A stretch of 64,000 nucleotides of DNA from Pedobacter sp. HDW13 (GTDB lineage Bacteria > Bacteroidota > Bacteroidia > Sphingobacteriales > Sphingobacteriaceae): contig NZ_CP049868.1 of the NCBI RefSeq assembly GCF_011303555.1, positions 682,001 to 746,000 of the forward strand, in the 5' to 3' direction. Made by a program: the position numbers and the translations under genes. Numbering within the stretch: the first letter of the stretch is position 1; each line of letters starts with the position of its first letter. The notes under the pieces are model-generated. The model did not search any database, was not told where the DNA came from, and was given only the letters and a program-made list of their open reading frames with translations. This document shows positions 25,821 to 41,075 of this stretch, in pieces.

Positions 25821-25828
25821 TATATTTG
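25821..25828 (+). promoter_or_regulatory. Bacteroidota -7 element (TATATTTG)
   Basis: Exact TAnnTTTG match 19 bp before the Fic ATG at 25847. Confidence 0.5.
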
Positions 25829-25846
25829 TTTTATATCATAATTAAT

Positions 25847-27202
25847 ATGCTTCAATCAACAGAACTCAAAAACAAACTCGCTCATACAATCGCCGAATTC
25901 AAAAGTGCACAACCATTCACTCAAGAAGTGAAACAGCAAATTGATGATAAATTCAGATTAGAATTTAACTTCAATTCCAACCATCTTGAGGGCAATACAT
26001 TAACCTACACAGAAACAGAACTATTACTTCGTTTTGACAGAACCGAAGGCAATCATGAATTTAGGGAATACGAAGAAATGCAAGCACATGATGTTGCATA
26101 TCTTATGATTGAAACTGAAGCTCAAGACAAGGAACGCCCTTTAACAGAAAACTTAGTTAGAACACTAAATCAAACATTGTTGGTTAAGCCCTATTGGAAA
26201 GATGCCAGAACACAAGGTGGGGATTCTACCCGCAAACAGATTATCCCCGGAGAATATAAGTCAACTCCTAACTCGGTTATACTTACTAACGGAACAATTT
26301 TTCATTATACCGCACCCGCAGATGTACCTAATGAAATGAATAAGCTTATTACTTGGTATAATGATAATGAAGAACTTGAAGACCCGATAACCTTAGCAGC
26401 CACTTTACATTATAAGTTTGTTAGGATTCATCCATTCGATGATGGAAACGGGAGGACCGCACGCTTACTCATGAATTATGTTTTGCTTAGATCTGGTCTT
26501 CCGGTTGTGATCATTAAAGCTGAAGAAAAGAAAGATTATCTCTCAGCTCTAAATAAGGCAGATTCAGGCGATATCCAATATTTTGTCGATTACATCGCCA
26601 ATCAGCTACTTTGGAGCATCAATATCCAATTAAAAGCATCAAGAGGAGAAACAATAGAGGAAGAGGATGATGTTGAGAAAGAGCTTTCTATCTTACGACG
26701 AAAACTTGCTTCTTTACCAGATGAGTTTGATCAGGAAAAGAGCAAGGCTACAATACTTGAAATGGTCAATAAAAGTATATTTCCGTTATTCGACAGTGCA
26801 AGTGAATTGGTTGATAGCATTTCTGATTTATTCGTGAGTACAAGCTTTTACTTATTTGCATATTATCCAGAATCAAGCGACAAGTTGGAGCCTCATACTG
26901 TCCAAAGAACGGCAAGCGAGGATTTCTTGAAGAAATTAATTGATACGCAACCTAAGCTTGCCAAATTTAGTTTCTGGTTTAGATTTAATGCGTTAAAGAA
27001 GGCAACTACATCAATTGACTTCAAACATGAAATTAACGTAACTCTAGAGAGATATCACTATAGAATAACATTAGAAGATACAAAGTTAGAGACAAGATTG
27101 CCTTATGGAAGAGTTATTTCAAACAGTGATATTAATATGCTAATTAAAGGCCTTAAGAAAGAAATAATACAGGAGGTTAAAAATGCCATTAACATTGATT
27201 AA
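25847..27202 (+). CDS. Fic family protein with N-terminal autoinhibitory motif
   Basis: Start placed at ATG 25847 because the longer frame uses a TTG inside the -7 element. The protein is about 451 aa. It has the Fic core HPFDDGNGRTAR (about residues 194-205), which carries the catalytic His and the phosphate-binding loop, and an inhibitory helix motif NSNHLEGN near residues 44-51 matching (S/T)xxxE(G/N), so it is a self-restrained class II-type Fic. Fic enzymes AMPylate protein hydroxyls. The C-terminal 200 residues are helical and unassigned. Confidence 0.9.
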   Translation: MLQSTELKNKLAHTIAEFKSAQPFTQEVKQQIDDKFRLEFNFNSNHLEGNTLTYTETELLLRFDRTEGNHEFREYEEMQAHDVAYLMIETEAQDKERPLTENLVRTLNQTLLVKPYWKDARTQGGDSTRKQIIPGEYKSTPNSVILTNGTIFHYTAPADVPNEMNKLITWYNDNEELEDPITLAATLHYKFVRIHPFDDGNGRTARLLMNYVLLRSGLPVVIIKAEEKKDYLSALNKADSGDIQYFVDYIANQLLWSINIQLKASRGETIEEEDDVEKELSILRRKLASLPDEFDQEKSKATILEMVNKSIFPLFDSASELVDSISDLFVSTSFYLFAYYPESSDKLEPHTVQRTASEDFLKKLIDTQPKLAKFSFWFRFNALKKATTSIDFKHEINVTLERYHYRITLEDTKLETRLPYGRVISNSDINMLIKGLKKEIIQEVKNAINID

Positions 27203-27350
27203 CTACAATAGAAATTGATTAAATCAAGTGCAAATTTAAGCTTCTAATCTCCTCACCCTTCGAGAAATTTGATATATATGTTACCTCAGCGATGATATAT
27301 CGCTTTAAAATGAAAAGGCTAGGCTCCGTCTCACTAAATATGAGTATTTT

Positions 27351-27362
27351 ACGGTTTACCGT
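27351..27362. promoter_or_regulatory. Palindrome ACGGTTTACCGT before the lipoprotein gene
   Basis: Perfect inverted repeat 52 bp before the ATG at 27414. Its GGTTTACC core is the reverse complement of the GGTAAACC core in the 16-bp palindrome at 34421-34436. Confidence 0.3.
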
Positions 27363-27413
27363 ATGGTAACTAACCTTTAACTATATACATTAGTAACAAA
27401 TTAACCTTTCATA

Positions 27414-27830
27414 ATGAAGAGAACTCCCTTAATATCGATAGCTGTACTATTAATGGTCGCGCTATTAACGTTTACATCCTGTAATCATAAAGAAAAACCC
27501 TTACATATCCTTACAACAAAGGTTGTTGGAATGGATGAAAAACAGATAAGAAAAGACACCACTACTACTGTCGAATCAGAATACTTTGAAGTCAAACTAT
27601 CATCTGTTAGCAATGGGGAATTTTATGTTGCAGGCAAACAACTTCTAAAGCCTCAAATTGGCAAAGAATATAAGACGGAGTTCTTTAAAGTCATTGATGA
27701 ACAAGGTAAAGAACTTGAATTTAAGACCCCTACTGATTTCCTAAACTTTATGAGCAAAGCAGGCTATGAATTAAAAGAACAGGAAAAGCAGAAGTTTGGT
27801 ATTGATTACACTTTTAAGAAGAAGCCCTAA
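27414..27830 (+). CDS. Lipoprotein (138 aa)
   Basis: A clear lipobox signal peptide (LLMVALLTFTSC) gives a lipidated Cys followed by NHKEKP. The mature part is a small soluble domain with KDTTTTVESEYFEVKLSSVSNGEFYVAG and a Lys-rich tail. It resembles single-domain cargo lipoproteins of mobile elements, but I do not recognise a family. It precedes a small putative membrane protein by 30 bp, so the two may be co-transcribed. Confidence 0.65.
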   Translation: MKRTPLISIAVLLMVALLTFTSCNHKEKPLHILTTKVVGMDEKQIRKDTTTTVESEYFEVKLSSVSNGEFYVAGKQLLKPQIGKEYKTEFFKVIDEQGKELEFKTPTDFLNFMSKAGYELKEQEKQKFGIDYTFKKKP

Positions 27831-27860
27831 TATATCTTTTAAACGTTAAATTAATCAGCG

Positions 27861-28337
27861 ATGAATGCTTTATCGGGTTCAATATTCGGAGCAATCCTAG
27901 GCTTCATATCCTCTTTTGGATTTATGGCAATGAACATCAAGAAGAGCCAACGATCGCAGTTATTTCCAATAATAGCAGTAATTACTACAGTATTCGGAGC
28001 TGTTGGCGGTGGCCGTATTGGCTACAACCTCGATAAATCAGATAAGATCGCCAGAAGTTTGGGTTTAGATAACATAAAACACACTCACTATAAAGTTGGC
28101 CGACTTTGGGAATCCCAATCAACATGGAATGATGTTAAAGGGGCTCGCCATATGGTTACAACCTTAAAGCGCAACAATAATATAGTTTCCCTTTACAATG
28201 GTGGCGTAATATCCACACATGGCACTTCCGCATCATCAGTCAATATTACTAGATACCATAATGAGGCAAGGAACATTACATTTGCGAAGCTAAAGGAAAG
28301 GGTTGGAGATGGTTATATTAAATACTTAAGCAAGTGA
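27861..28337 (+). CDS. Hypothetical membrane-associated protein (158 aa)
   Basis: Two N-terminal hydrophobic, glycine-rich segments (SGSIFGAILGFISSFGFMAMNI and LFPIIAVITTVFGAVGGGRIG) form a likely membrane hairpin, followed by a soluble basic C-terminal domain (about residues 70-158). No family recognised. Its stop lies 5 bp before the ATG of the HNH gene, which suggests one operon. Confidence 0.6.
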   Translation: MNALSGSIFGAILGFISSFGFMAMNIKKSQRSQLFPIIAVITTVFGAVGGGRIGYNLDKSDKIARSLGLDNIKHTHYKVGRLWESQSTWNDVKGARHMVTTLKRNNNIVSLYNGGVISTHGTSASSVNITRYHNEARNITFAKLKERVGDGYIKYLSK

Positions 28338-28342
28338 TATTG

Positions 28343-29131
28343 ATGGCATCTGAACCGAATTTAACAAGTTTAAGAGTTTCTGTAAGATATAACTATAAAA
28401 CCATAATTACATATATTAGAGATAACTTTATCCGAAGAGATAACAAGGGAAAAGCGATTAGGACAGATGAATTGCCCATATGTTACTTTTGTGGTTCAAA
28501 CCATGGTTTAACCAAAGAACATATTATACCTCGTTGGGTATTTAACAAAGACAATGAGTTAAGCTTTGATATAACATTAAATGGTCATCTACAAACTTAT
28601 AACAGATCAACAATAAGAGCATGTGCTAAGTGCAACTCGGAATTGTTAAACTCACTGGAAAAGCACATTCAGCTAATCTTAAAGTATTTCAAAGATAATG
28701 GCAGACTATTGATGAGGGATGATTCCTCAAATATAATTCGATGGCTAGAGATCATAGATTATAAGTTTCATATCATGAATATTACTATGAAATTCTTAAG
28801 CCCAATGAATGGTAAACATATTCCATATCTTGCTGATTTTCCTTTATCTATGTTACTTCAGAACAAAAACAGTTCTCCAAGTAAAGTTACTAATGAAATC
28901 AGAAAAACTTTGTTAAGACTAAGTATTAGAACAAAGGATAATCAAGTCAATTCATTAGTTGTATTTAAGACGAGTAATGACAATAACCACTTCTTTCACA
29001 ACTTAAATGAATTTATCTTTCTGGAGATAGCACAATTCAGCATAGCTTTATTCTATTTTTATGAAAGATCTTTTCAAACGATAGAAGAGGCAAGAGATGA
29101 AGCAATGTTAATTATCAGGCGGCTATACTAG
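28343..29131 (+). CDS. HNH endonuclease domain protein
   Basis: From ATG 28343 (a GTG at 28334 would overlap the preceding stop) it encodes about 262 aa. A zinc-ribbon HNH module spans about residues 45-105: CYFCGSNHGLTKEHIIPRWVF gives the first CxxC and the His of the EHIIP catalytic segment; CAKCNSELL gives the second CxxC and the conserved Asn. The rest is helical with no second domain I can name. HNH proteins of this size in islands are commonly restriction or defence effectors; that role is inference. Confidence 0.75.
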   Translation: MASEPNLTSLRVSVRYNYKTIITYIRDNFIRRDNKGKAIRTDELPICYFCGSNHGLTKEHIIPRWVFNKDNELSFDITLNGHLQTYNRSTIRACAKCNSELLNSLEKHIQLILKYFKDNGRLLMRDDSSNIIRWLEIIDYKFHIMNITMKFLSPMNGKHIPYLADFPLSMLLQNKNSSPSKVTNEIRKTLLRLSIRTKDNQVNSLVVFKTSNDNNHFFHNLNEFIFLEIAQFSIALFYFYERSFQTIEEARDEAMLIIRRLY

Positions 29132-29175
29132 ACATTATTAAATAATTATATTTGGCTATAACTAAATAACACCTC

Positions 29176-29463
29176 ATGATTAAAAAGTATTTACTTGACG
29201 CTACTGCTACACTTCCTAATGGAGAATTAGTTGTCGGCCCCATAGTAACAGCTAATGACACAGAATACCTATTCGTAAATAAGTATAGTGATTTAGACTT
29301 CTATTTAACAATGCAAAAGAACCAGAATGGATGGTATCAAAGTGGAGGACCCAATATAATCCATCCTCAATCAATGGTGGACGAATTAGGTCTACAGATA
29401 GACAAATTTCTTATTGAGAATCCAGCTCTGAGTAAAACAAACCTTAAGGATAATAATGACTAA
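29176..29463 (+). CDS. Small hypothetical protein (95 aa), partner of the next gene
   Basis: A short soluble protein with ANDTEYLFVNKYSDLDFYLTMQKNQNGWYQSGGPN; no signal peptide, acidic C-terminus. Its stop overlaps the next ATG by 8 bp, a tight coupling typical of two-gene modules such as toxin-antitoxin or immunity pairs. No family recognised. Confidence 0.6.
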   Translation: MIKKYLLDATATLPNGELVVGPIVTANDTEYLFVNKYSDLDFYLTMQKNQNGWYQSGGPNIIHPQSMVDELGLQIDKFLIENPALSKTNLKDNND

Positions 29464-30409
29464 GCGACTACCTTCTGAGTTTGCTATAAACATGTATCTA
29501 GAGAAGATGATGATTCTACAGCAAACAGATCTTCATATGGTGGGCGATCTGAATTACTTTGACGAGCAAGATCCTTGTCATTTGTATTTTATTGGCAAGA
29601 GGCCTAGGGTTACAGTCGTACCTGATAAGTTTAAGCATGACGAGAGTTTGTTATATATAACGTTTAAGATTCAGAAGCAGAATTCATTTGAAGAGGTGGA
29701 ATTGAAATTAGGCCATAAGTTTAAGGATAAAGAATTGACGATTGAAAGCAAATATCCATTCAATATATTCGACATCATGGTTGATGGTGTTCAGAATTAT
29801 CACATCAAAGCTTCTACGTTGATCCAGAAGGCTAGTACTGGCATAGATACAGAATTCCTAGATTTCGATGTGTTATATGTCGGTCAATCCTATGGTGTGG
29901 ATGGAGCAAGAACTGCGCCTGACAGATTAGTGAATCATTCTACTCTGCAGGGGATTTATGCAGAAGCAATGATAAACAATCCTGATTATGAAGTTTGGTT
30001 AGCCCTAGCTTCATTCAGGCAATTGAATTTGATGATGTTTGATGGACGAACTAAGTTCAGCAACGAAGAAAGAAAGGCCGATAAAAAGAGGTTTAAGAAA
30101 GTTTTCAATAAGATACAAAATGTTGGTCTTAATGAACAACAAGTCATCAATTTTACAGAGGCTGCTTTAATAAAGTATTTTCAACCACCCTATAATAAGA
30201 TATATAAGGATTCATTCCCTAATCCAGCCCACAAGACATACGCTGAATGCTATGAATTAGATATTAACTCTGTTTGTATTGAGATGCAAACCGACGATCT
30301 TGTCAATTGCAGTTTCTTTTCCGACACAGTTAAAAGAGCCCCTTGGAACATGGAAAGTTTCTTTCTCCATTCTTCAGCTGATCGGAAAAGCATGTTCGAC
30401 TTTATATAG
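29456..30409 (+). CDS. Divergent GIY-YIG-like protein
   Basis: A 317-aa protein with no signal peptide. In its second half, FDVLYVGQSYG (about 137-147) followed by RLVNHSTLQ (about 156-164) looks like the YVG..RxxxH core of a GIY-YIG nuclease, and EAALIKYFQPPYN (about 235-247) matches the usual metal-binding Glu and terminal Pro-x-Tyr-Asn of that family. The first 120 residues are beta-rich and unassigned and may be a recognition domain. Tight overlap with the 95-aa gene suggests a paired effector. The nuclease call is inference. Confidence 0.5.
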   Translation: MTKRLPSEFAINMYLEKMMILQQTDLHMVGDLNYFDEQDPCHLYFIGKRPRVTVVPDKFKHDESLLYITFKIQKQNSFEEVELKLGHKFKDKELTIESKYPFNIFDIMVDGVQNYHIKASTLIQKASTGIDTEFLDFDVLYVGQSYGVDGARTAPDRLVNHSTLQGIYAEAMINNPDYEVWLALASFRQLNLMMFDGRTKFSNEERKADKKRFKKVFNKIQNVGLNEQQVINFTEAALIKYFQPPYNKIYKDSFPNPAHKTYAECYELDINSVCIEMQTDDLVNCSFFSDTVKRAPWNMESFFLHSSADRKSMFDFI

Positions 30410-30537
30410 AAATTAACCATTACTCAAATTCAGGCCTATAATCTCATCACACCTAAGGGAATCCGCCATAAACTTACAAAGCAAACACTATCCACTTAAT
30501 GCATTGCTCTTTATGTAATGTCTAAAATTTAACTAAC

Positions 30538-30930
30538 ATGAAAAGTATATTCATCTTTCTAACTCTTGGTTTGTTATCAATTGCAGCTAGCGCTCAAAGC
30601 ACATCGGAACCGCCTGTACAAAATATTTCACCAGACAGCACTGTCGTGTATCGACTCTTTTCCACTAGGAACATGTATACATTTATAAAACTGAACACTA
30701 GAAATGGCCAAATGTGGCAAGTTCAATGGGGCACAGAGAGCAAGTATAGATTTGAAAGTACACTTTCGGATGTCTCTCAGGTAAGTCCTGCCGAAGAGAA
30801 AAATGGCAGATTCTTCCTCTATCCTACTACGAACACATATAACTTTATTTTGCTTGACCAAGTAAATGGTAAGTCGTGGCAAGTACAGTGGGGAAAAGAA
30901 GGAGAAAAAATGGTTCTTCGTATAAATTAG
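30538..30930 (+). CDS. Secreted protein with two internal repeats (130 aa)
   Basis: Signal peptide MKSIFIFLTLGLLSIAASAQ, then a duplicated unit of about 30 residues: VVYRLFSTRNMYTFIKLNTRNGQMWQVQWG and RFFLYPTTNTYNFILLDQVNGKSWQVQWG (written apart here as two separate copies). The shared NG-x-x-WQVQWG ends suggest a beta-propeller-blade or beta-hairpin repeat. Family unknown. A CAAATT-type intergenic repeat flanks it on both sides (30411-30475 and 30963-31030). Confidence 0.6.
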   Translation: MKSIFIFLTLGLLSIAASAQSTSEPPVQNISPDSTVVYRLFSTRNMYTFIKLNTRNGQMWQVQWGTESKYRFESTLSDVSQVSPAEEKNGRFFLYPTTNTYNFILLDQVNGKSWQVQWGKEGEKMVLRIN

Positions 30931-31122
30931 AGTGTTTTACAGATCATGCGAGATGGTACACATAATTATTAATCATTACACAAATTTAAGCTTGTAATCT
31001 CAACACGCCTAAAGGAACTACGGCATAAACGCTCCAATGGCCACCACACAACCAATTTATTCCGTTCCTCCTTTGCTTAGTTGCGATTAAAGCTTGCCAT
31101 CGTACCATAATTAATAAATCAT

Positions 31123-31584
31123 ATGGTACAAGAACAAACCTCATTTAGAGTGACTGAAGTTGAAGTAAGCTACAGATCAAACTACAACATTACGGAACGA
31201 CCAAAAATTAACAGTTCAAAGGATGCTTACCAAATATTGATGCAACATTGGCAATTAGGCAGAATCGAGCTGTTAGAGGAATTTAAGGTGATTTTACTGA
31301 ATACCAGTAACCGCGTATTAGGAATAGTCGATATTTCGGTTGGTGGAGTGGCTGGAACGTTGGCTGATCCTAAAATCATCTTTGCGATTGCGTTAAAGAC
31401 GAATAGCAGCAAATTAATACTGGCTCACAACCATCCGAGTGGAGGATTGATACCAAGTGAAGCTGATAAACGGTTAACTCAGAAATTGAAAGAAGGAGGA
31501 AAGCTACTTGATATTGAGGTCTCTGACCATTTGATTATTACAAATCATGGCTATTACAGTTTTGCTGATGATAACGAGATTTAA
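31123..31584 (+). CDS. RadC-like JAB-domain protein
   Basis: A 153-aa protein consisting of the RadC C-terminal JAB/MPN domain alone: a leading QILMQHWQLGRIELLEEFKVILLNTSNRVLG, then the metal-binding HNHPSGGLIPSEADKRLTQKL (JAMM-like H-x-H...S..D) and DHLIITNHGYYSFAD. It lacks the HhH N-terminus of chromosomal RadC, as is usual for copies carried by Bacteroidota integrative elements. Last gene of the island before the right-hand repeat. Confidence 0.88.
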   Translation: MVQEQTSFRVTEVEVSYRSNYNITERPKINSSKDAYQILMQHWQLGRIELLEEFKVILLNTSNRVLGIVDISVGGVAGTLADPKIIFAIALKTNSSKLILAHNHPSGGLIPSEADKRLTQKLKEGGKLLDIEVSDHLIITNHGYYSFADDNEI

Positions 31585-31801
31585 CTAACTTAGCGACAAA
31601 TAACAAATTATTAACTCCGCTACGCTTGTCGATAAGCGTGTTCCAAGTTCTTTAAACGAATATATACTGAATCATTTTGAGCCACAAATTGGCGACAAAA
31701 CAGCCGACAAAATGAGCTAAAAGAGGCGATTTTAGGGCAAAATCAGTGGAAATTAGAAGCAGAAATACGCTTGAACCAAATCTTAAAACGGTTCAAAAAC
31801 A

Positions 31802-31891
31802 GCGCACAACATCCCAAAAGGTGCGGCCATCCGCATTAAATTTCTCCCAGCTGTATTTAAAGGGTTCTGATTTCACTAACCAATGATTCAT
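31802..31891. repeat. Right copy of the 90-bp flanking direct repeat (displaced EVE 5' end)
   Basis: Repeats the first 30 codons of the EVE gene antisense, 4 mismatches in 90. The candidate core ATTGGCGACAAAA lies just inside at 31688-31700. Confidence 0.75.
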
Positions 31892-31917
31892 TATTTTCTA
31901 TTTTTAAAGGGCTTAAA

Positions 31918-31998
31918 CGGTACCGATAAGCAGTTTGTGTATTGTTATTGTTTAAACTTCAAAACTAAGAAAAGGGAATGGAATAGGAAGAATGAGTA
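31918..31998 (+). pseudogene. Tyrosine integrase N-terminal remnant (right)
   Basis: Frame reading DKQFVYCYCLNFKTKKREWNRKNE, parallel to the left remnant's NKPYVYFYYLDSKTKKREWIRK. It ends at TGA 31994-31996 with no catalytic domain. Confidence 0.5.
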
Positions 31999-32201
31999 AA
32001 ATATAAAAAGATTTAGATGATGATTTAATTAAGCGGCTAAGCCAGAAACCTAAAGGCAAGCATTAATTTAGTTCTCCAACGCCTCATTTCGGCCTGTAAA
32101 CCGATGGGATGCTTTTTCTAGCCTACCGGATCTTCATCCCGATGGTTTTACTTTCATTTTTTGTTATTTAAGTAGACTCACTTATTTTTTTAATCAATAG
32201 T

Positions 32202-32396
32202 GCCCATAGATATTGTACCATCTTGTCAGATTCGGCAGTTATAACCATGACCCGCCCTGCGGCTGTACAAGCAGCCTCTTATATTTTCAACAGTAGTATG
32301 CATTTTTATTTCTTCTCTAACATGAAGTCCGCCATTGCAACGCCTAGTTTAATCGGCTTGTGAGGATATTGCTATCTCACCCTACGGTTCTGCAAA
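32202..32396 (-). ncRNA. Candidate guide RNA for the dCas12f homologue
   Basis: Downstream of the dCas12f stop on the same strand. Hairpins in order: GTGAGATA/TATCCTCAC (32380-32360), GCC/GGC with a 10-nt loop (32357-32342), GGCTG-CTTGTA-CAGCC (32276-32261), and GGCGG/CTGCC (32256-32234). GTTAGA (32321-32316) pairs with TCTGAC (32230-32225) and flanking CTT with AAG, giving a tracr-repeat-like closing helix. The GGCTGCTTGTACAGCC hairpin resembles the GGCUGCUUGCAUCAGCC hairpin I recall in a Cas12f1 tracrRNA. The 20 nt after the helix, ATGGTACAATATCTATGGGC (32221-32202), are the predicted guide. Ends and guide length are inferred. Confidence 0.65.
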
Positions 32397-32411
32397 AAAC
32401 CTCTTAATATC

Positions 32412-33509
32412 TTACTCAACAATCATCTGGATGCCTGCCATTTCTGCCTTATAGTTGATTTTGTCCTTAAGGCTATAATAGCTCCAGTTCTGCAACAGGT
32501 AATGATCTTCTTTCGCTATTTCCTCTTTTTCCTGCTGGTTAATCAGTAATAATGTTGCCGCCCGGTGTTTCACACAGAAATCGATCAGCATCCGGCTGTA
32601 GACATGTAGTTTATACTCCACATACCGTTTTTCCATATTGCGGTAATCTTCAACGCTTTTCATTTTCCGCTTCCTGCCATGGCCGCCACGGTTAAAAGTT
32701 ACGGCTTTTTTGCCCCTGTTTACCGCCGACTGTATTGCTAGCCTCCTATATAGGAATTCTTCCCTGTTTCCAATTGCATGCTCGTGCCTACCGATCTTAA
32801 CCGTTACCGGGTGCTCTATTGAAAGTGAGGCTTCGGCAATGATCATGGGATCAAGTACATGTTGTTCTTTTTCGATCGCTATAGCAGCTAGCAAAAATAC
32901 CTTACCCTTATCGAGCTGAATGTGGCTGGCGCGGAGTTTCAATGTACCGCCCAAGATCCTTTCCAGCATGATCTTTTTGTCCGACCTGTCTTTTCCAAGA
33001 TAAGTTCTAAAGGGAATCTGAAAAAGCCTGAAGGTAAAATTCCTGTGGTCAGAAGTTTTGGCCAGTTTGGAAATTACCTCTGCCCCAAAAGGCAGTGGGA
33101 TATTGCGTTTGTAGTTCCTCAATGACTTTTCTCCTTTCCAATAAGCATCCTTCTCTTTGTTGAAAGAGGATATTAAAGTATTGTTGAGGTTACTTAGGAT
33201 ATTGGTAGGAATCTGCCCCTTGAAATGATTGGAAAGCAGTTTGTAGGTAGTATTCTGGCGTGAGGAATTCAGTATCCCGTTCGCTTCCTTTTTCTCATCG
33301 GCTATTTTCAGCTTGATCTCCTCGGTCAGGTAAAAGAAATCCTTTACCTGTTCCTGCACAAAATGGTGGCTCATGATCATATTGGCAGCACGGAAACAAA
33401 TGCGTTGCCAGTCGTATAGCTGATCCTTCGCAGCTCTGATCACTTCTTTATCGTCCGAGTCAATCAGTAGCTGGATTTTACGGGTGACAATCATCGTTTC
33501 TTTTTCCAT
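32412..33509 (-). CDS. Nuclease-dead Cas12f homologue
   Basis: A 365-aa protein aligning by eye along its length with miniature Cas12f1. Shared marks: YKRNIPLP (133-140), MLERILGG (181-188), the Arg-rich NRGGHGRKRKMK (273-284), LQNWSYY (339-345) and INYKAEMAGI (351-360). Every RuvC catalytic position is lost: MIIAEASL (222-229) replaces the GIDLG-type motif; LLLINQQ (320-326) replaces the xxEDL motif; and the chain ends at 365, before the zinc finger and third Asp. The conserved body with a wholly removed active site indicates selection for RNA-guided binding. It starts 4 bp after the sigma gene stop, so they are co-transcribed. Confidence 0.85.
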   Translation of the reverse strand: MEKETMIVTRKIQLLIDSDDKEVIRAAKDQLYDWQRICFRAANMIMSHHFVQEQVKDFFYLTEEIKLKIADEKKEANGILNSSRQNTTYKLLSNHFKGQIPTNILSNLNNTLISSFNKEKDAYWKGEKSLRNYKRNIPLPFGAEVISKLAKTSDHRNFTFRLFQIPFRTYLGKDRSDKKIMLERILGGTLKLRASHIQLDKGKVFLLAAIAIEKEQHVLDPMIIAEASLSIEHPVTVKIGRHEHAIGNREEFLYRRLAIQSAVNRGKKAVTFNRGGHGRKRKMKSVEDYRNMEKRYVEYKLHVYSRMLIDFCVKHRAATLLLINQQEKEEIAKEDHYLLQNWSYYSLKDKINYKAEMAGIQMIVE

Positions 33510-33513
33510 GGCA

Positions 33514-34329
33514 TTAATTTTTTATCCTTTTTACTTTGGTATAGGCTAGCACAAAAGCTCTTTTGATATGCTCCTGGCTTAAATTCAATGCTCTGGCGAT
33601 CTCTTCAAAACTGTACTGGAGTTCATACCGCATGTGCAGAATACGGGATTGTTCCTCACAGAGATCGCCCTCAAATTTGAATTTCTTGGCTTTTCCGGTA
33701 GACTCAAGTTTTTGTGAGCTGGTCAGAATTGATTTTAATGTTTCCAGTGTTTTTTCCACGGTTCGGGCCACCTGATAATCCGAAATGCCACCAATATGCC
33801 AGGCAATGCGTTCATAGTTGAAATTATATTTAAGGCATAGCTGAATAAACAGCTGCTGGTTTTCGTTAAGGTTAGGCATGACCGCCTCGACTTGCCGCCA
33901 TTTTAGCTTTAAGCGTTCATCCAATTCTTCCTGATATATTACATCTTCGGGATCCGGTTCAGTCTCCGGATCGTAGCCTCCGATGAACTCCTGATAGTTT
34001 TCGATCTCGTCGAGTTTGAGCATATTCCGTTGAAAATTGTGGCTGGAGATCTTATAGTAAGCTTTGCAGGCCTTTAGGGTGGTGCTATGGAGAAAGCTTT
34101 TAAGGTGGTTCGGACAGGTTATACTATTTCTGATGAGCCAAAGACGAAGAAAAGCTTCGCTAACGATACAGTCCGCGTTAACGTCATCTTTGATGTACCT
34201 TCTCCTTTGATAAAATAACGAAGGATAGAGCTGATTATAAAAGTATTCAAGGCCTCTTTCATCACCACTGCTGAATTTGTTGAAATAAAAACTCTTCTCG
34301 TTTATGTTATATGTGGTTTCTGCTCTCAT
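33514..34329 (-). CDS. ECF-like sigma factor linked to dCas12f
   Basis: A 271-aa sigma-70 family protein. Residues about 14-100 form region 2: FSSGDERGLEYFYNQLYPSLFYQRRRYI, SEAFLRLWLIRNSITCPNHLKSFLHSTTLKACKAYYK, close to Bacteroidota ECF factors. The family normally has one region 4 and is about 180-200 aa; this one has two helix-turn-helix segments, NLNENQQLFIQLCLKYNFNYERIAWHIGGISDYQVARTVEKTLETL (about 155-200) and CEEQSRILHMRYELQYSFEEIARALNLSQEHIKRAFVLAY (about 225-265). First gene of the operon with dCas12f. The extra C-terminal domain could be the contact surface for dCas12f; that is inference. Confidence 0.85.
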   Translation of the reverse strand: MRAETTYNINEKSFYFNKFSSGDERGLEYFYNQLYPSLFYQRRRYIKDDVNADCIVSEAFLRLWLIRNSITCPNHLKSFLHSTTLKACKAYYKISSHNFQRNMLKLDEIENYQEFIGGYDPETEPDPEDVIYQEELDERLKLKWRQVEAVMPNLNENQQLFIQLCLKYNFNYERIAWHIGGISDYQVARTVEKTLETLKSILTSSQKLESTGKAKKFKFEGDLCEEQSRILHMRYELQYSFEEIARALNLSQEHIKRAFVLAYTKVKRIKN

Positions 34330-34392
34330 AAATCAGTGTTTATGTTCTGATTCAAATTATTATTAAGATAATGGGGGCGAAATAAAGCAAAA

Positions 34393-34521
34393 ACCAGCCC
34401 TTCCGCGTTAATATCTGCGGATATGGTAAACCATATTTGTTATTAGAAAAAAGATACTTACCTTGGGATTGCGAAAAACCATTGTGCTGCACCTTTGCCT
34501 AATTAGCAATAAAGGGCTGGT
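34393..34521. ncRNA. Multibranched fold upstream of the sigma gene
   Basis: A 10-bp closing stem (ACCAGCCCTT 34393-34402 with AAGGGCTGGT 34512-34521) encloses a CCGC/GCGG hairpin, the perfect 16-bp palindrome at 34421-34436, and a long helix TTGTTATTAG/CTAATTAGCAA. Strand unknown. It could be the 5' leader of the sigma-dCas12f mRNA, or an independent RNA. Confidence 0.4.
34421..34436. promoter_or_regulatory. Palindrome ATATGGTAAACCATAT upstream of the sigma gene
   Basis: Perfect inverted repeat (7-bp arms, 2-nt centre) 92 bp upstream of the sigma start; possible operator of the sigma-dCas12f operon, or a hairpin within the folded region 34393-34521. Confidence 0.4.
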
Positions 34522-34780
34522 AACAAGCTAAATTAACCTGCTGGGCTTTGTGCGCTCTCTTCACACTAGCCTCTGCTTTTTTGGGCTATATTTTAACTTG
34601 GAATTCTGGCACGTATTACGATGGAGAACAAATAACGTTCTTTAATAATAGTTGTAGGGAATAATTACGAATCACTTCCTGGAGGTGAATGATTTTGATG
34701 GCGCTTAATTTTTTCGTTTTCATAACCGGTTAATTTTTATGTAAAACGATGTAAACTCTACAAAGCAGAAGGCAAACCAG

Positions 34781-34983
34781 ATTGGTATCAACCAATAGGG
34801 CGAAACTCAATGCTTTTGAAAGAGGTACCGTCAAGAACCACTTAAGCCAAGGCTTAAGTTCCACAAAAGACTGACATGAGTTGCGCCCTATTGAATATGA
34901 TATCACGAAGATAACAAAACTCAATAGATACGGCGAACTCACGATCGGCTCATGTGGAAAGTTTGACGGTTTTCTTTCATGAG
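34781..34983. ncRNA. Long structured RNA candidate of unknown class
   Basis: On the plus strand: hairpin ATTGGT-ATCA-ACCAAT (34781-34796); a long helix between CAATAGGGCGAAACTCAATG (34792-34811) and CATGAGTTGCGCCCTATTG (34875-34893) closing a CTTTTG/CAAAAG stem and the perfect hairpin CTTAAGCC-AA-GGCTTAAG (34841-34858); and a distal hairpin CTCATG...CATGAG (34949-34982). Pairing is far above background. No protein family is seen. It might be another guide RNA, an element remnant or a regulatory RNA. Confidence 0.45.
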
Positions 34984-35060
34984 AGACATCGTAAAAAGCA
35001 AGATATAATCCTTACTCTATTTGTCGCTATTAAACTAATTATTAAACAAATATAAATATT

Positions 35061-35079
35061 ACTTGACTATTATGCAAGT
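35061..35079. promoter_or_regulatory. Operator-like repeat ACTTG-N9-CAAGT
   Basis: Perfect inverted repeat ending 15 bp before the HTH gene ATG, with a third half-site CAAGA at 35086-35090; probable autoregulatory site. Confidence 0.5.
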
Positions 35080-35094
35080 TTTTATCAAGATAAA

Positions 35095-35478
35095 ATGTCT
35101 AAGAAAATAAATGATATAGCAAAAGCCATTAAGGATTCGCCTCTTCAAGTTGCTGCGTTGGCATTATATCTAGATGTTGATGATACAACAATAAGCAAAT
35201 GGAATTCAAATATTGCCCAGCCTAGTTTAAAACGACTAAACGAAGTTGGTGAAATTTTAGAAATTGATAATAAAGAGCTACTTATTTCACAGCCAAGAAA
35301 ACAAACAGGGCTTGCTGGAGCGCTACAAGTCGAATATAAAAGATTATTATCTATTGGATTGACCAAAAAAATAATAATAAAGGAGGATAATGGCGGCCAT
35401 AAAGAGGTTAATAATCCGGAAATGGTAAAAAAACTGAGGGAGTTTGCTTCTAAATATGAAAATAATGCTAAACCATAA
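35095..35478 (+). CDS. XRE-type HTH regulator (127 aa)
   Basis: A Cro/CI-type helix-turn-helix at residues about 10-60 (LQVAALALYLDVDDTTISKWNSNIAQPSLKRLNEVGEILEIDNKELL) followed by a short C-terminal region with LTKKIIIKEDNGGHKEVNNPEMVKKL. Such regulators control restriction or mobile-element modules. It precedes a broken SRA gene by about 100 bp and may have been its regulator. A 19-bp inverted repeat lies in its promoter region. Confidence 0.8.
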   Translation: MSKKINDIAKAIKDSPLQVAALALYLDVDDTTISKWNSNIAQPSLKRLNEVGEILEIDNKELLISQPRKQTGLAGALQVEYKRLLSIGLTKKIIIKEDNGGHKEVNNPEMVKKLREFASKYENNAKP

Positions 35479-35575
35479 GCAATTTTATTTCATCATATAC
35501 CAATTGCAAGAAGGATAGATAATCAACAAGCTCATATTAAAAATTAACCGTAACTAATTTAAGCTGTAACTTTTC

Positions 35576-35942
35576 ATGACTAAGCCAATAATATTTGGAG
35601 AGATAAAAGGTATCGCAGAAGGCTATCAATTTGAAGATAGAAGAATTATGATGAAGGATAGTTTCCATAGAAACTGGGCCGGAGGAATAGATGGGACAGG
35701 GATAACAGGCATTGCAGCAATAGTACTTTCAGGGGGCTACGCAGATGACAAGGATCTTGGTGATACAATCATTTATACCGGTGCTGGCGGTAACGAAGGT
35801 GACAGTAAAAAGCAAACTAAAGACCAAGACTGGAATAACCGAGGCAACGCTGGGCTATTGAAAAAGCATGGAGGAAGGATTACCCGTGAGAGTAATTAGG
35901 GGTGCAAACACAAAAGCCCATTTTCTCCAAAACAAGGCTTAG
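35576..35942 (+). pseudogene. SRA (YDG) domain fragment with a frameshift
   Basis: FGEIKGIAEGYQFEDRRIMMKDSFHR, then IAAIVLSGGYADDKDLGDTIIYTGAGG and KQTKDQDWNNRGNAGLL match the SRA/YDG fold that binds methylated cytosine in restriction enzymes. After NAGLL the frame is lost at an A5 run (35861-35865); with one A fewer it continues KSMEEGLPVRVIRGANTK, the expected SRA sequence, and then stops at 35940-35942. The rest of the SRA domain and any nuclease domain are missing. A dead restriction gene. Confidence 0.8.
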
Positions 35943-36294
35943 AGATGATTTCAATATCGCTTATATGAATTTCTATAAAAACTTTCATTCCGAACTCGGC
36001 CATTATTTCAGGTACCTGTATAACCTACTCCAGTTTACGTTAAAAACCAGAAAACCGACTAATGACCATTTGAATTACATTAACCTCATACAGGCGCAGT
36101 TATCCAATAACGAATTGGCCCTGATCTATTACAACGTACTGAGTGATAAAGGACTAAACAGAAACAAAACCTTCAATTCCCATAATCTATTGGATGAATA
36201 TAATTTCTTCGAAAAAACTAAGCTAAATCTGTCTCCCCTAAAACGTTTCAAACCCCATCTCATAGATCTAAACACCATATTTGATGCTATTTAA
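35902..36294 (+). pseudogene. AbiC-like phage abortive-infection protein, C-terminal fragment
   Basis: From a GTG at 35902 it reads FHSELGHYFRYLYNLLQFTLK and YINLIQAQLSNNELALIYYNVLSDKG, the recognisable middle and C-terminal part of putative phage abortive infection (putAbiC) proteins, which usually begin with membrane helices that are missing here. The SRA remnant runs into it, so a deletion seems to have fused two defence genes. Confidence 0.6.
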
Positions 36295-36403
36295 TCCCGG
36301 GGCCTGTACTCTGATCTAAACTTAAAAAATGTAATACCAGTAACTATTGGAGAAAGCCGGATATACAGTTTGGAATGAGATTCGTTACACAATTCATAAA
36401 GCT

Positions 36404-37009
36404 CTAATTACAGTCCCGTTTAATGATATTTGCGGTCTTAATGGTTTCTGTATTAAAATTTTCATTGCGAAACCGGTTCATTTTTGCAATGGCAATATAT
36501 TTATCCGCATCTTCGCAGTTGCCGATTTTATAACTATAGATCGCTAAATTAAAGCTCAATACATAATACTCAAACTGATCTTGTTTTGATCTTTCAAAAC
36601 CTTTCTTTAAGATTGCCATAGCCTCGGGATATCTTTTAACTTCCCCGAGTATAGTTCCATAACTGGCATAGGCCTGTAAATAATTGCTATCTAATTGAAT
36701 TACCTTTTTGAAATGAACGATAGATTCGTCCGTTTTTCCCATGTGACCTTCAATATTGGCCAGCGCATTTAAGACATTAGGATTATTAGGTTCTACTGAA
36801 TCCGCTTTTAAATAGCAATCCAATGCATTCCCGAAGTCCTGGTTACGTGCGTTGCTGTCACCAAGCCTTGCCAACCTTTTGACCGTTAGCGACTTCATTC
36901 CCTTGTATTCATTTCCGATGATCACCCTTTCGTTCTCCTCCTGGCCAGATTGGCCACAGGCGCTTAGGATTGTACAAACCAAGATAATCAAATAGCATTT
37001 GAGCCTCAT
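36404..37009 (-). CDS. TPR-repeat lipoprotein (201 aa)
   Basis: A lipobox signal (LIILVCTILSAC) and then tetratricopeptide repeats from about residue 50: ALDCYLKADSVEPNNPNVLNALANIEGHMGKTDESIVHFKKVIQLDSNYLQAYASYGTILGEVKRYPEAMAILKKG. A helical scaffold held at a membrane, typical of adaptor lipoproteins. It lies 68 bp downstream of the Ntn-hydrolase-like gene on the same strand. Confidence 0.8.
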   Translation of the reverse strand: MRLKCYLIILVCTILSACGQSGQEENERVIIGNEYKGMKSLTVKRLARLGDSNARNQDFGNALDCYLKADSVEPNNPNVLNALANIEGHMGKTDESIVHFKKVIQLDSNYLQAYASYGTILGEVKRYPEAMAILKKGFERSKQDQFEYYVLSFNLAIYSYKIGNCEDADKYIAIAKMNRFRNENFNTETIKTANIIKRDCN

Positions 37010-37076
37010 TTATCTACTTTTTATTAATGTTTTTTAGCAAAATTCAGCTTTTTTCTATCCTCGACCTTTACTTGCT

Positions 37077-38135
37077 TCATTGAATATCCATAAATTGCTT
37101 CAACCCCTTATTCACTGCCTCATTGTATTCTTGTTTAAAGGCATAACGAAAACTGTCCTCTGATTTTATTCCGATAAACATAGGCTTTTCATCAGACTCC
37201 CATTCTTTAATTAGCAAAGCAACTCGTACAATCTCATCATTGAGTTTCCTAATGAAAAGTCCTGTTATCACATCGTGGCTTTTACAGGCTAGTGTAATAC
37301 CTTGAATACTCAAACTTTCTTTAACTCCAAATGGAGGAATTAAAGAAAATTTGAATTTTCCGTAGAAATCATAATTCATGACCAGTACATTTTCATCTTC
37401 GTATCTGTTATGGTTTAAAGAGACAATTTTTACCGCATCCAAATTATCTTCCCGAACATACAAAAACGAATAAGTGACATTGTCATATCGATGAAATTTA
37501 CCACCTTCATAATAGACTATATCAAATCCAGCACCCCAGCCGTCAAGTAGATTTTCTTCGCTGCCAAATTCTAAACTGATGTATTTAATGCAAGCTGTCA
37601 GCGCCCTAAATATACAATCAGTGCGTCTATCTCCCATGCTTTGGGAATAACCTTCGTTTTCGACAAAATGCTTTACCCATTCAGAAGCGCCACTTCCCGT
37701 AGCCAAAATATCCAAATTGGTTTTACTGTGATCCTGGAGCCAATTACCTAAACACACGACCATAAGCTTATTATCTTCCAATTCCGGACCGCCAAGTGCC
37801 AAAAGGACAGACACGCTGGAGTATTCCTCGAAATTATCACTAATGTCATCTACAAGGATGAGTAAAGATTGTTTATTGATGTCCCTATGCGTAAAATAAT
37901 CTACAATATAGCTGCGCAGGGCTTCAATCTGTGAAACCAACCCTGCAAATGCAACACATAAAATATCTTTAATAATAGTAGATTTAACCCGAAACTCGAC
38001 CACCGGTACTGGGGATCCTGTTTCCTTACCTGTAGAAGGAATAACAATGTTTTCCAAAATATCAGGGTCTGAAATCGCACGATCACTGATGATAATCGGG
38101 TAGGCATTGCCATAAATAATTGAGATAAGGCTCAT
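37077..38135 (-). CDS. Proteasome-like Ntn-hydrolase candidate
   Basis: The long frame starts at 38159; I prefer ATG 38135, giving MSLISIIYGNAYPIIISDRAIS. Read this way it lines up with HslV/proteasome beta subunits: Ser2 at the N-terminal nucleophile, SDRA at the conserved Asp, STIIKDILCVAFAGLVSQIEALRSYI for the AGF(A)G strand and helix, and ILATGSGASEWVKHFV for the GSG motif. The protein is about 352 aa, longer than HslV, with a beta-rich C-terminus. No recognition of a named family; the fold call is inference. Confidence 0.5.
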   Translation of the reverse strand: MSLISIIYGNAYPIIISDRAISDPDILENIVIPSTGKETGSPVPVVEFRVKSTIIKDILCVAFAGLVSQIEALRSYIVDYFTHRDINKQSLLILVDDISDNFEEYSSVSVLLALGGPELEDNKLMVVCLGNWLQDHSKTNLDILATGSGASEWVKHFVENEGYSQSMGDRRTDCIFRALTACIKYISLEFGSEENLLDGWGAGFDIVYYEGGKFHRYDNVTYSFLYVREDNLDAVKIVSLNHNRYEDENVLVMNYDFYGKFKFSLIPPFGVKESLSIQGITLACKSHDVITGLFIRKLNDEIVRVALLIKEWESDEKPMFIGIKSEDSFRYAFKQEYNEAVNKGLKQFMDIQ

Positions 38136-38305
38136 TGCTAGAATAAATAAAGATGCCAAAATATTAAATCCATAAAAATATTCAACAAGCTGTCTATTTT
38201 TATTTATTATTTACCATAAGATATTGCTCTTATACCAGGAAAGTTAAAAAGAAAGCGGAAATGAATGCTAAATTCGTTTCCGCTTGAATTTGATATAACT
38301 AAAAC

Positions 38306-39676
38306 CTAAAAAAAGGAATCTTTTAAATCCAGGATTAAACGTTTAACACCAATACTAAACGAGACCTGCGGCCTATCTGCAATTCTACTTAGCCCCGCTT
38401 TCCCCGGACTGAACAAATATGCTCCTCCGGTTGGAATCACCCAATTTTGCTTATCATCAGATATATTTACCTCTCCTAGAGGACAACTAAGCTTCAAACT
38501 CCTGTTTAGATTAGAACGTCCTACCAGAAGATCATTTCCAGGTTGCCTGCCAGGCCGGTCAACCCCGTTCATCCACTTCGCACTGATAAACTCGAAAGTG
38601 TCTTCAATCGAAGTCTGATAGGAAACAAACATTAATCCCTTTTCTCCCTGGGGTTCTTCTTCGAAAGGCTTCCCATAGGGAATACCCCTTCTTAATAACC
38701 TGGGCACATCAACGACATCTTTGGGGCCTTTACGGGGATTAACTTTCCTGATATGCCCACCAAAGGGGCAGCCTTTTCCATCCTGATCGTCAGAAAAATC
38801 GAACACATTATCATCTGGGATTGCTCCGGGATCTGCCGATTGCGTGAAAGAAACCAGGGCCCCGTTAGGCCAACGACCAACAATCAATGCCTGAACATGT
38901 TCTCCTGTAACACCAGGCAGATGCAGCTGTAACTCAAGTGCCTTCTGATCGCAAAATGAACGGAATTTTTGAACATCCTGATTTAGCCTGCGAATGACGA
39001 GCAATGAACCATTTGCTGTTAACTGCCTGGGATCCGTACCGGCAAATTCAGCAGTCCCTCCTTCAACCTTGGGGTATCCAAAAACAAAGTTCCCCATTTC
39101 CAATTCTCCATCCAGATCAAAGCCTTTGACCGTAGGCTGTGAAATCCCATCCCTGAACCCAAAGTGCTCCAAGTCCTTATTGCGTTCAGCGGTCTCAAAA
39201 TAAGTTTGTTTTAAGCCCGCCAATTTAGCACTGTTAATTAGTTCAGTTGCCCGCTCCTCGGCGGTATTTCTATCGTTAGCCCCTATGGTTAAAAGAATAT
39301 CAATTGGATTATTCTCCCCGCCTATTTTCCAGCTAGTTTGAGGAGTTCGGTCGCCTAAAAGCGGACCTGCACGTCTCACCATGCCAAGCCGGAAAGCCGC
39401 ATCATTAAATAACACATCAGGTGATGTTTTTGAAAAAACCTTATAGCTTAAGGCCAGCGAAAGCCATGAAATATCCTGCAAGCGATCCATATCCCGAATC
39501 GGCCTCCGCTGCTCCCGCACTTGATTAACTGAGGTTAGCTCTGGAGCGCGCGCTGCCAGCCAGAAAGCAATTTCCTGCCAGGCATCCTCTGTATTATTGG
39601 TTAAGCCAGCAAACACCTGAAAATTCGTATTAAACCCTGCAAGGATGTTTCCCTGAATGTCATCAAGATTACTCAT
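38306..39676 (-). CDS. Dye-decolourising (DyP-type) peroxidase
   Basis: Start placed at ATG 39676 (MSNLDDIQGNILAGF), 10 bp after the preceding stop; a longer frame would begin inside the upstream gene. About 456 aa. It shows the DyP distal motif FGFRDGISQP (GxxDG) and, in the C-terminal half, FGGHIRKVNPR with the proximal haem His. Cytoplasmic, no signal. DyP enzymes oxidise aromatic substrates with peroxide. Its tight pairing with the unknown 462-aa gene suggests a common substrate or cofactor route. Confidence 0.92.
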   Translation of the reverse strand: MSNLDDIQGNILAGFNTNFQVFAGLTNNTEDAWQEIAFWLAARAPELTSVNQVREQRRPIRDMDRLQDISWLSLALSYKVFSKTSPDVLFNDAAFRLGMVRRAGPLLGDRTPQTSWKIGGENNPIDILLTIGANDRNTAEERATELINSAKLAGLKQTYFETAERNKDLEHFGFRDGISQPTVKGFDLDGELEMGNFVFGYPKVEGGTAEFAGTDPRQLTANGSLLVIRRLNQDVQKFRSFCDQKALELQLHLPGVTGEHVQALIVGRWPNGALVSFTQSADPGAIPDDNVFDFSDDQDGKGCPFGGHIRKVNPRKGPKDVVDVPRLLRRGIPYGKPFEEEPQGEKGLMFVSYQTSIEDTFEFISAKWMNGVDRPGRQPGNDLLVGRSNLNRSLKLSCPLGEVNISDDKQNWVIPTGGAYLFSPGKAGLSRIADRPQVSFSIGVKRLILDLKDSFF

Positions 39677-39686
39677 AAACCAATAG

Positions 39687-41075
39687 CTAAAGCCTAGTAA
39701 TGGATTTAAAAGCACTAGCTTTCACTTCGATCTCTTTAGGTTTTGGCAGTAAGCCCTCAAAGGCCAGCTCATAACCAGGTACACAGGCTCCTGTACTATT
39801 CAAAACCAATATTTTGGTTCCTGTTTTTCTACAGCAGGTGCATTCACAGTTTACAACAGGACCAACTGAATTTGTAGTACGCTTCCATCGGGTAACAAAG
39901 AGATGAACAGAAAGCAACTGGGCCAATTGTGCGCCATAAACAACCGGGTTTCCATCAATTAATAAATCTGCCAATATTAAGCCTTCGCTGGCTGGAACTT
40001 CCAATTCCAAACGTAAAACCCTGCTTTCTGCGGGAATCCAAAGGTCCGAGCCTCGCACTACTTTCCACCATTCACGTGGTATAGGTTCTCCGTTTGGCAA
40101 AGTCAATCGCTGCTCTTCAACTGCCGCAATATAGAGTCCCACCGGATCTGCCAGTGTATAGTGATAAGCTGCTAAAACCTGCGCGTATGCCTGTTCTCCA
40201 ATAAGCGGATCGCTATTCCGATTGGGATTTCCGCCATTTGAACAGCAAAGCAATAGTTCAGGTTTTCCAACTTTAAGGATATTCCCATCCGTTCCTTTAC
40301 GTGCAATCCCTGATACGCCTGCCAAATTAACTTCAGCACCAAGGGAATTCGCACGATGCGAAAGGTGGACGATTCCAGGATCAATATTGTAGCCATTCCT
40401 CCAGTTGAACCCACCTTTTTCAACCAAGGTTACAGGCTTGGTTTTACCTGGATACAAAACTTGCAACCCTTCCAGTGCCCTGAGCTCATCCACCTGAATA
40501 CTGTTAATCCCCGTGAATTCGCGGTACATATCCCTCACCAAGGTTGGGTCATTTTCGAATAAAGTAGCATAATAATCATAACCTTCGGCTACAAATATCG
40601 CTTTGGTGATCTTACCATCCTGGTTGCGGCGAACTGTCCATTCCAGGTATTCATCCTGCCTGTGCCGAACCGGAAAAGTGAGTGGATTTCCATTCAGGTC
40701 ACTCAACTGGCCATTATGGATATCTTCATTACCGGATTGTTCAGATGCCCTGAAATTCCCTTTGAAATCGATATCATCCGGTGGAAACGGCCACGGTGCA
40801 TTTCTTTCCACAGCTCGCGGAAAGGCTCCCCAGGGAGATATCCCAATAGTTTCTGCATCAGCCGGTGGTGCGGTAACAGTTGGATCTACATAGGCAAGCT
40901 CAGGTCCCACAGCCAGAATATCTTCCGGGGTAATGTCTTCATAATCTTTCCCAAGGGTTTGACCTACAAGAATTCTGATAATGTCTTTGGCTTCTTTTTC
41001 CATGGCATCATGCCATTTAGATGGGTCTTTAAAATCATGCACGTTTCCAGGTGCATTAAATTTCCAGGCGCTCAT
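39687..41075 (-). CDS. Hypothetical protein encoded with DyP peroxidase (462 aa)
   Basis: A soluble protein without a signal peptide. Distinct segments are SPWGAFPRAVERNAPWPFP, FPVRHRQDEYLEWTVRRNQDGKITKAIFVAEGYDYYATLF, and NIDPGIVHLSHRANSLGAEVNLAG. The last 70 residues carry a cysteine cluster (VNCECTCCRKTGTK) that could bind a metal. I have no reliable family name. Its stop and the DyP start are 10 bp apart, so it is the first gene of a two-gene operon. Confidence 0.7.
   Translation of the reverse strand: MSAWKFNAPGNVHDFKDPSKWHDAMEKEAKDIIRILVGQTLGKDYEDITPEDILAVGPELAYVDPTVTAPPADAETIGISPWGAFPRAVERNAPWPFPPDDIDFKGNFRASEQSGNEDIHNGQLSDLNGNPLTFPVRHRQDEYLEWTVRRNQDGKITKAIFVAEGYDYYATLFENDPTLVRDMYREFTGINSIQVDELRALEGLQVLYPGKTKPVTLVEKGGFNWRNGYNIDPGIVHLSHRANSLGAEVNLAGVSGIARKGTDGNILKVGKPELLLCCSNGGNPNRNSDPLIGEQAYAQVLAAYHYTLADPVGLYIAAVEEQRLTLPNGEPIPREWWKVVRGSDLWIPAESRVLRLELEVPASEGLILADLLIDGNPVVYGAQLAQLLSVHLFVTRWKRTTNSVGPVVNCECTCCRKTGTKILVLNSTGACVPGYELAFEGLLPKPKEIEVKASAFKSITRL

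Follow-up and report, generated by a model that had tools for sequence, protein, structure and literature searches.

Can a Cas12f protein that has lost its nuclease work with a sigma factor to start transcription at guide-chosen sites, and if so, what would such guided initiation be for? The question is raised by a locus in Pedobacter sp. HDW13, lying in a 64,000-nucleotide stretch (hereafter the window; contig NZ_CP049868.1, positions 682,001 to 746,000), where a sigma factor gene, a nuclease-dead cas12f gene (dcas12f) and two predicted guide RNA (gRNA) genes follow one another. We think that the locus encodes an RNA-guided transcription initiator, with the guide directing the sigma factor into the leader that precedes redoxin-SusC-SusD operons, and give this reading a probability of roughly 0.86. 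It is built, from sequence, on the pairing of the two proteins, the loss of the active site, two gRNA scaffolds, the identity in relatives between guide 1 and a leader site (site A) next to a G, and a leader with conserved structure, an open reading frame (ORF) and a promoter-like motif.

The two protein genes are separated by 4 bp (33510-33513) on the minus strand: a 271-aa sigma factor of the RpoE/extracytoplasmic function (ECF) type (33514..34329) precedes a 365-aa Cas12f-type protein (32412..33509), and the ORF list agrees with an earlier sequence-only reading on this arrangement. The three motifs listed there (RGGHGRKRKMK, LQNWSYY and INYKAEMAGI) are all found in the Cas12f translation. 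The sigma factor matched the NCBIfam model sigma70-ECF (E 6.5e-19) and, in a Pfam scan, sigma-70 region 4 (E 7e-10), with region 2 (E 0.013) falling below the Pfam cut-off. The Cas12f-like protein retrieved no family in a Pfam scan and matched the PADLOC Cas12u3/Cas12f models (E 5.8e-51 and 2.6e-49). Its residues 2-364 align to PDB 9n9c, "Nuclease-deactivated Cas12f" (E 6.7e-135), a sequence that recurs in 9n9m, 9n9o and 9n9q, while the sigma factor matches chain C of 9n9q, "RpoE" (E 2.4e-41). Because both the dCas12f sequence and the RpoE chain match, entry 9n9q holds homologues of both partners, which supports the earlier proposal that dead Cas12f, linked sigma factor and gRNA constitute an RNA-guided transcription system. 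Since 9n9c and 9n9q together match both proteins, the locus is, judged by its protein sequences, a member of the dCas12f-sigmaE kind of RNA-guided transcription system.

The proposed loss of RuvC residues and zinc finger was borne out by alignment to the 506- and 508-aa Cas12f chains of 9nzo and 9nzr. A serine (EASLS) stands opposite the RuvC-I aspartate of VDLG, and a gap opposite the RuvC-II glutamate of MERL, these being the residues that we take to be catalytic in Cas12f chains. The alignment stops at residue 362 of 365, and the 9nzo and 9nzr chains continue for another ~90 aa; as the match ends ~90 aa short, the protein lacks RuvC-III and the zinc ribbon. All of the aligned sequences (7/7) share the IAEASLS stretch, the other six being 58-82% identical to the window protein. 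A protein search returned 1028 dCas12f relatives at E<=1e-5, and the 120 matches listed range from 311 to 378 aa, mostly 363-366. The short dead form is thus a family rather than one broken gene.

The sequence-only reading had named homologues without a linked sigma factor as a point that would count against it. A sigma relative was found near dcas12f in all 20 related loci (all Pedobacter; numbered L below, with their genomes numbered G), the gap being longer in L013 (~780 bp) and L020 (~340 bp), as measured between matches. Two loci, L015 and L016, have beside dcas12f a sigma frame that looks interrupted by a frame change or shortened.

A single folded RNA had been proposed 3′ of dcas12f. 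The RNA stands in part: we predict two gRNAs instead of one, on the strength of a conserved, covarying scaffold, while the region folds no better than shuffled sequence (32190-32411, z +0.78; 156/200 shuffles fold at least as well), and folding energy was dropped as gRNA evidence for this z score. The scaffold, AGGCTGCTTGTACAGCC-GTAGGGTGAG...CTCAC, is common to the regions downstream of dcas12f in the window and most of the 20 loci. Across 19 aligned copies, 94.7% of cells are paired, as against 25-48% in slid versions, and four pairs changed on both sides, a level reached by 0/500 shuffles. A covariance model (R1), built with both window copies included, assigns two-hairpin scaffolds to gRNA 1 (32348..32403, minus strand, 51.6 bits) and gRNA 2 (32222..32278, minus strand, 52.1 bits). 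These were the only copies at comparable scores in a whole-genome search (next best 19.1 bits), and at least one copy was detected in each of the 20 loci, that of L020 lying between sigma and dcas12f. P. ghigonis (L001) has an intact first copy (51.6 bits) alongside a degraded second one (15.5 bits). A search of Rfam with 30000-37000 at E up to 1 gave no match for the gRNAs or the leader; a snoRNA match inside dcas12f (E 0.95) was rejected as far under its cut-off. Some relatives carry tandem, same-strand arrays of complete gRNA genes: ten in L007 (5299-7073), eight in L006 (7111-8588), six in L019 (7163-8161) and five in L011. Short CRISPR-like repeats (CRISPR, clustered regularly interspaced short palindromic repeats) occur inside some of these arrays (L006, L007, L010).

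What, then, do the guides match? Guide 1, GGCGGACTTCATGTTAG (32317..32333, minus strand), is conserved in relatives; a boundary six bases further 5′ yielded no target, and the boundary was reset from the scaffold tail of the relatives. So defined, G + GGCGGACTTCATGTTAG, an 18-mer with a chance expectation of ~2e-4 per genome by our own arithmetic, occurs with 0 mismatches in 5/7 genomes searched (G001, G002, G003, G005 and G009); no exact match was found in G000 (this genome) or G006. Reversed control patterns gave 1-5 matches per genome at <=3 mismatches. The exact site with its G is present in the genomes of L001, L002, L004 and L018, all of which have a gRNA 1 model match, and their local guides agree with GGCGGACTTCATGTTAG at 17, 16, 16 and 16 of 17 positions, respectively. 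G003 also has the exact site, but its locus, L009, is without gRNA 1. The four relatives that share this gRNA thus appear to have a guide match upstream of SusCD, preceded on its 5′ side by a G. This G, found before site A in 25/28 aligned leaders, is presumably the target-adjacent motif.

The matched site lies in a conserved structured leader, of which the window has its own copy before the sigma-dCas12f operon (34376..34930, minus strand), supported by a same-genus genome search, covariation and a second copy in this genome. The leader was detected in 34/119 same-genus genomes at E<=1e-10, this one included, with 1-3 copies per genome. The second copy here is upstream of a redoxin-SusC-SusD operon at 3808 kb, whose products are a redoxin/AhpC-TSA protein, a SusC (TIGR04056, 476 bits; cut-off 368) and a SusD (PF14322, E 2.4e-23). 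Thirty leader loci were returned. Nineteen precede a thioredoxin/redoxin-family protein; two precede a SusC-like N-terminus (L247, Plug domain; L230, CarboxypepD_reg-like domain only); and three precede sigma-dCas12f, namely the window, L221 (the L001 copy) and L224 (the L003 copy). SusC and SusD were read after the redoxin gene in six longer loci (L060-L065; SusD is cut by the contig end in L063). SusCD operons had been suggested as likely targets, and the guides of relatives do match redoxin-SusC-SusD leaders.

Several features suggest that the leader acts as RNA. RNAalifold, run on 28/30 loci after two partial copies were dropped, predicted 87 pairs, 26 of them with changes on both sides; in the hairpin at columns 111-118/123-129, both sides of a pair are altered in up to 12/28 sequences. 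The first long hairpin has as its 3′ strand site A (GGCGCAACTCATGTCAG in the window, 34871..34887, minus strand, with a G before it at 34888). A leader-peptide-like ORF of 35 codons, MKTKKLSAIK...KNVICSPS (34616..34723, minus strand), is open in 28/28 aligned leaders at 34-36 codons. Around a second site, site B (CACAATGGTTTTTCGCA, 34470..34486, minus strand), ~400 bp downstream of site A in the same element, structure prediction and covariation point to a terminator-like outer hairpin, CCAGCCC...GGGCTGGTTTTT (34389..34520, minus strand). A consensus terminator scan, which found 3 terminators where 2.8 were expected, did not flag this hairpin; it was blind to it because only loops of 3-8 bases were considered. 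Upstream of the leader, at a nearly fixed distance, is a promoter-like TTG-N20-TATATTTG (35047..35077, minus strand). The promoter consensus of Bacteroidota is TTG/TAnnTTTG, and a TTG-N17-23-TAnnTTTG motif is located 141-152 bases ahead of one common leader position in 24/29 cases, with 0.8 expected from mononucleotide shuffles. Because of the promoter-like motif upstream, the covarying structure and the conserved ORF, the guide sites very likely fall inside transcribed RNA, contrary to the earlier expectation of targets without a normal promoter. A further tiny ORF is likewise conserved and has FDxL-Y/F-AxKPKNP towards its end; it was seen before redoxin or SusC genes in L060, L061, L063, L064, L065, L165 and L168, and by eye in L066, and in several SusCD loci it separates the leader from the redoxin gene.

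Site B is also matched by guides of relatives. In L002, L008 and L009, the scaffold is followed by TACTATGGTTTTTCGCA, which has exact non-self matches in two of four relative genomes searched (G001, of L002, and G003, of L009), both falling in the conserved element upstream of redoxin-SusC-SusD operons. The exact guide-1 target copies of G005 and G009 have lost site B through an internal deletion, which fits the gRNA 2 of L004 and L018 carrying no site-B guide.

Guide 2 of the window, ATCTATGGGCACTATTGA (32194..32211, minus strand), belongs to a different guide class, whose members match another leader family, in register and following a G. In comparisons made mostly across species, the guides of L005 and L006 agree with the leader of G003 at 15/16 positions, and window guide 2 agrees with that of G008 at 14/16; those of L016, L017 and L019 agree at 13-14/16 with the G008 leader, which is that of their own genome. 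Guide 1, used as an informal background, reached 8-10/16. Where the second leader precedes SusC genes (L066, L086), it forms a long hairpin with the guide site in its 5′ arm, and relatives of this leader precede sigma in L019 and, by eye, L012.

How might binding inside a leader serve the downstream operon? A gRNA would load on dCas12f, and the complex would bind the leader site; the sigma factor would contact dCas12f and bring RNA polymerase. Transcription would then begin a few dozen bp downstream, beyond the upstream leader hairpins, and the SusCD operon would be switched on regardless of whatever stops ordinary leader transcription. A dCas12f-sigmaE study by Hoffmann, Sternberg and co-workers (a 2025 preprint) reportedly has dCas12f-gRNA place sigma and RNA polymerase, with a start at a fixed distance downstream, which we take to be ~40-50 bp past the G. 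A start at that distance from the G of site B would fall between the arms of the outer hairpin, and the new RNA could therefore not form the terminator-like hairpin. In the second leader family, the start would fall just before the 3′ arm, so that there, too, the hairpin could not form in the new RNA. A start from site A would skip the first hairpin only; the later one would stay. A tentative model, which we hold at less than even odds, is RNA-guided re-initiation inside an attenuator-like leader: a leader with its own promoter and leader peptide would hold back SusCD, a guided second transcript would avoid the upstream arms and open the operon, and the guides, set out as gRNA genes in tandem, would be copies of the switching segments. 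Placing sigma-dCas12f behind such a leader would create a hierarchy of leader-controlled guided sigma factors.

A number of observations weigh against the locus as a guided initiator. The sequence-only reading had proposed a genome search for guide targets, and neither guide has a perfect one here. The best site A, in the element before the 3808-kb operon (a region 92.5% identical to its P. ghigonis counterpart over 8850 bp), agrees with guide 1 at 14/17 positions, with mismatches at guide positions 5, 8 and 15; the leader of the sigma operon itself reaches only 13/17. The guide-1 copy of L003 has diverged, is not matched by R1, and its genome, G006, is without a matching site. In G002, the genome of L008, the best site-B leader sites have two mismatches. 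Among the 30 leader loci, the following genes are unassigned in six (L225 and L244, where the scanned ORF has no family; L237, L238, L248 and L249, with no 120-aa ORF in the flank). Guide 2, finally, has no credible site in this genome in pattern searches of which part of the matches was inspected. A first search gave five non-self matches at three mismatches (reversed control, one), all inside ORFs. A wider search at <=3 mismatches, a level at which it has little power, gave 35 non-self matches in G000, against 15 for the reversed control, and 28 against 14 in G002. Among the 14/35 inspected in G000, 13 lie inside ORFs of >=100 aa on either strand, and one (L208) is intergenic, its three mismatches being at the 5′ end; the 14/28 inspected in G002 are all inside ORFs. 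The second leader as query had 0 matches in this genome. Exact k-mers shared between the gRNA region and the window or locus flanks included nothing at the guides. Likewise, comparison of the gRNA region with the sequences upstream of 56 SusC genes of this genome (those scored among 208 first-look candidates), the 3808-kb locus and the sigma leader gave, among the best 40 and without a shuffled control, no exact match >14 bases and none covering a guide. The evidence for activity in this very genome is weak, and this is the main gap in our account.

One rival explanation is that the system works in relatives and that the present copy is decaying or target-less, its guides no longer matching and the locus being inactive or acting only on transferred SusCD operons. 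The three mismatches of guide 1 to the best leader here, the lack of a credible site for guide 2 and the degraded gRNA 2 of the sister copy in L001 (15.5 bits) all favour it. Yet the two ORFs and the two scaffolds are intact here, P. ghigonis has the identical guide 1, and two of the three mismatches of this guide are, on our own reading, wobble-compatible; we regard decay as possible but rather unlikely.

The shared leader also invites the idea that the local gRNA activates its own sigma-dCas12f operon, the leader preceding sigma in the window, L001 and L003, and the second family doing so in L019 and, by eye, L012. Self-activation is nevertheless unsupported because the leader of the sigma operon mismatches guide 1: agreement with the three sigma leaders (window, L001, L003) is 13, 12 and 14 of 17. 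Gapless 15-base matches between the gRNA region and the sequence upstream of sigma, in 18 loci plus the window and without a shuffled control, reached 12-14/15 and lie off the guides. On balance, we consider positive self-activation improbable.

More improbable still is an RNA-guided repressor, in which dCas12f, like TldR, would block transcription of the leader, the job of the sigma factor being another one. Because the guide sites are within a leader that follows a promoter-like motif and is likely transcribed, a dCas12f bound there could indeed be a roadblock, but a sigma relative is found near dcas12f in 20/20 loci and RpoE shares a structure entry with the closest solved dCas12f. To our knowledge, TldR has no sigma partner and is close to TnpB.

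That the leader is a mobile repeat resembling a miniature inverted-repeat transposable element, with incidental guide matches, is the least credible alternative: an inverted repeat (CCAGCCC/GGGCTGG) does lie near one end, but in 24/30 loci (all those assigned) the element precedes redoxin, SusC or sigma genes in one and the same orientation, its distance from the promoter-like motif is nearly fixed, its helices covary, its ORF is open in 28/28 and there are 1-3 copies per genome.

Around the locus, a divergent helix-turn-helix (HTH) gene (35095..35478, plus strand; weak DicA/RstR-like match) has a relative at the same place beside the SusCD leader of L063, with 82.7% DNA identity over 1076 bp. 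Other neighbours encode Fic-like (25826-27202), weakly HNH-like (28334-29131), RadC-like (31123-31584), SAD/SRA (35576-35899) and putative AbiC-type (35902-36294) proteins, which perhaps make up a variable island.

RNA-guided sigma factors are a natural counterpart of CRISPR activation. The locus and its relatives supply concrete guide-target pairs with the targets inside structured leaders, and they raise the question of what guided initiation bypasses. Among known systems, TldR proteins are nuclease-dead TnpB-like repressors and share with the window dCas12f RNA-guided DNA binding, an inactivated RuvC domain and a role in gene regulation (PMC13418256). TldR represses, whereas the window protein is closest to dCas12f and sigma-linked. 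Indeed, the sigma relative in 20/20 loci, a best solved homologue that is dCas12f, and a score of 34.8 of 100 bits with the NCBIfam TnpB model place it outside TldR. Type V-F Cas12f chains (9nzo, 9nzr; 506-508 aa) have a homologous body, covering residues 82-362 of the window protein; the RuvC residues and zinc ribbon of these nucleases are lost in the window protein, which is thus no type V-F CRISPR nuclease, a class with both intact. By eye, no adaptation genes were seen among the ORF translations of 26000-40000. The closest likeness is to the dCas12f-sigmaE systems of Bacteroidota (PDB 9n9c, 9n9m, 9n9o, 9n9q), which likewise pair a dead Cas12f of 365 aa with a linked sigma factor of the RpoE type. 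These systems reportedly have an adjacent gRNA and SusCD targets flanked by a G, such targets being matched exactly in four relatives here and at 14/17 at best in this genome. What may set the present locus apart from them are two tandem full gRNA genes (up to ten in relatives), guides identical to stretches of a structured leader, and a copy of that leader before the sigma-dCas12f operon. The kind of system is hence already known, and it is the anatomy of guide, target and leader that may be new.

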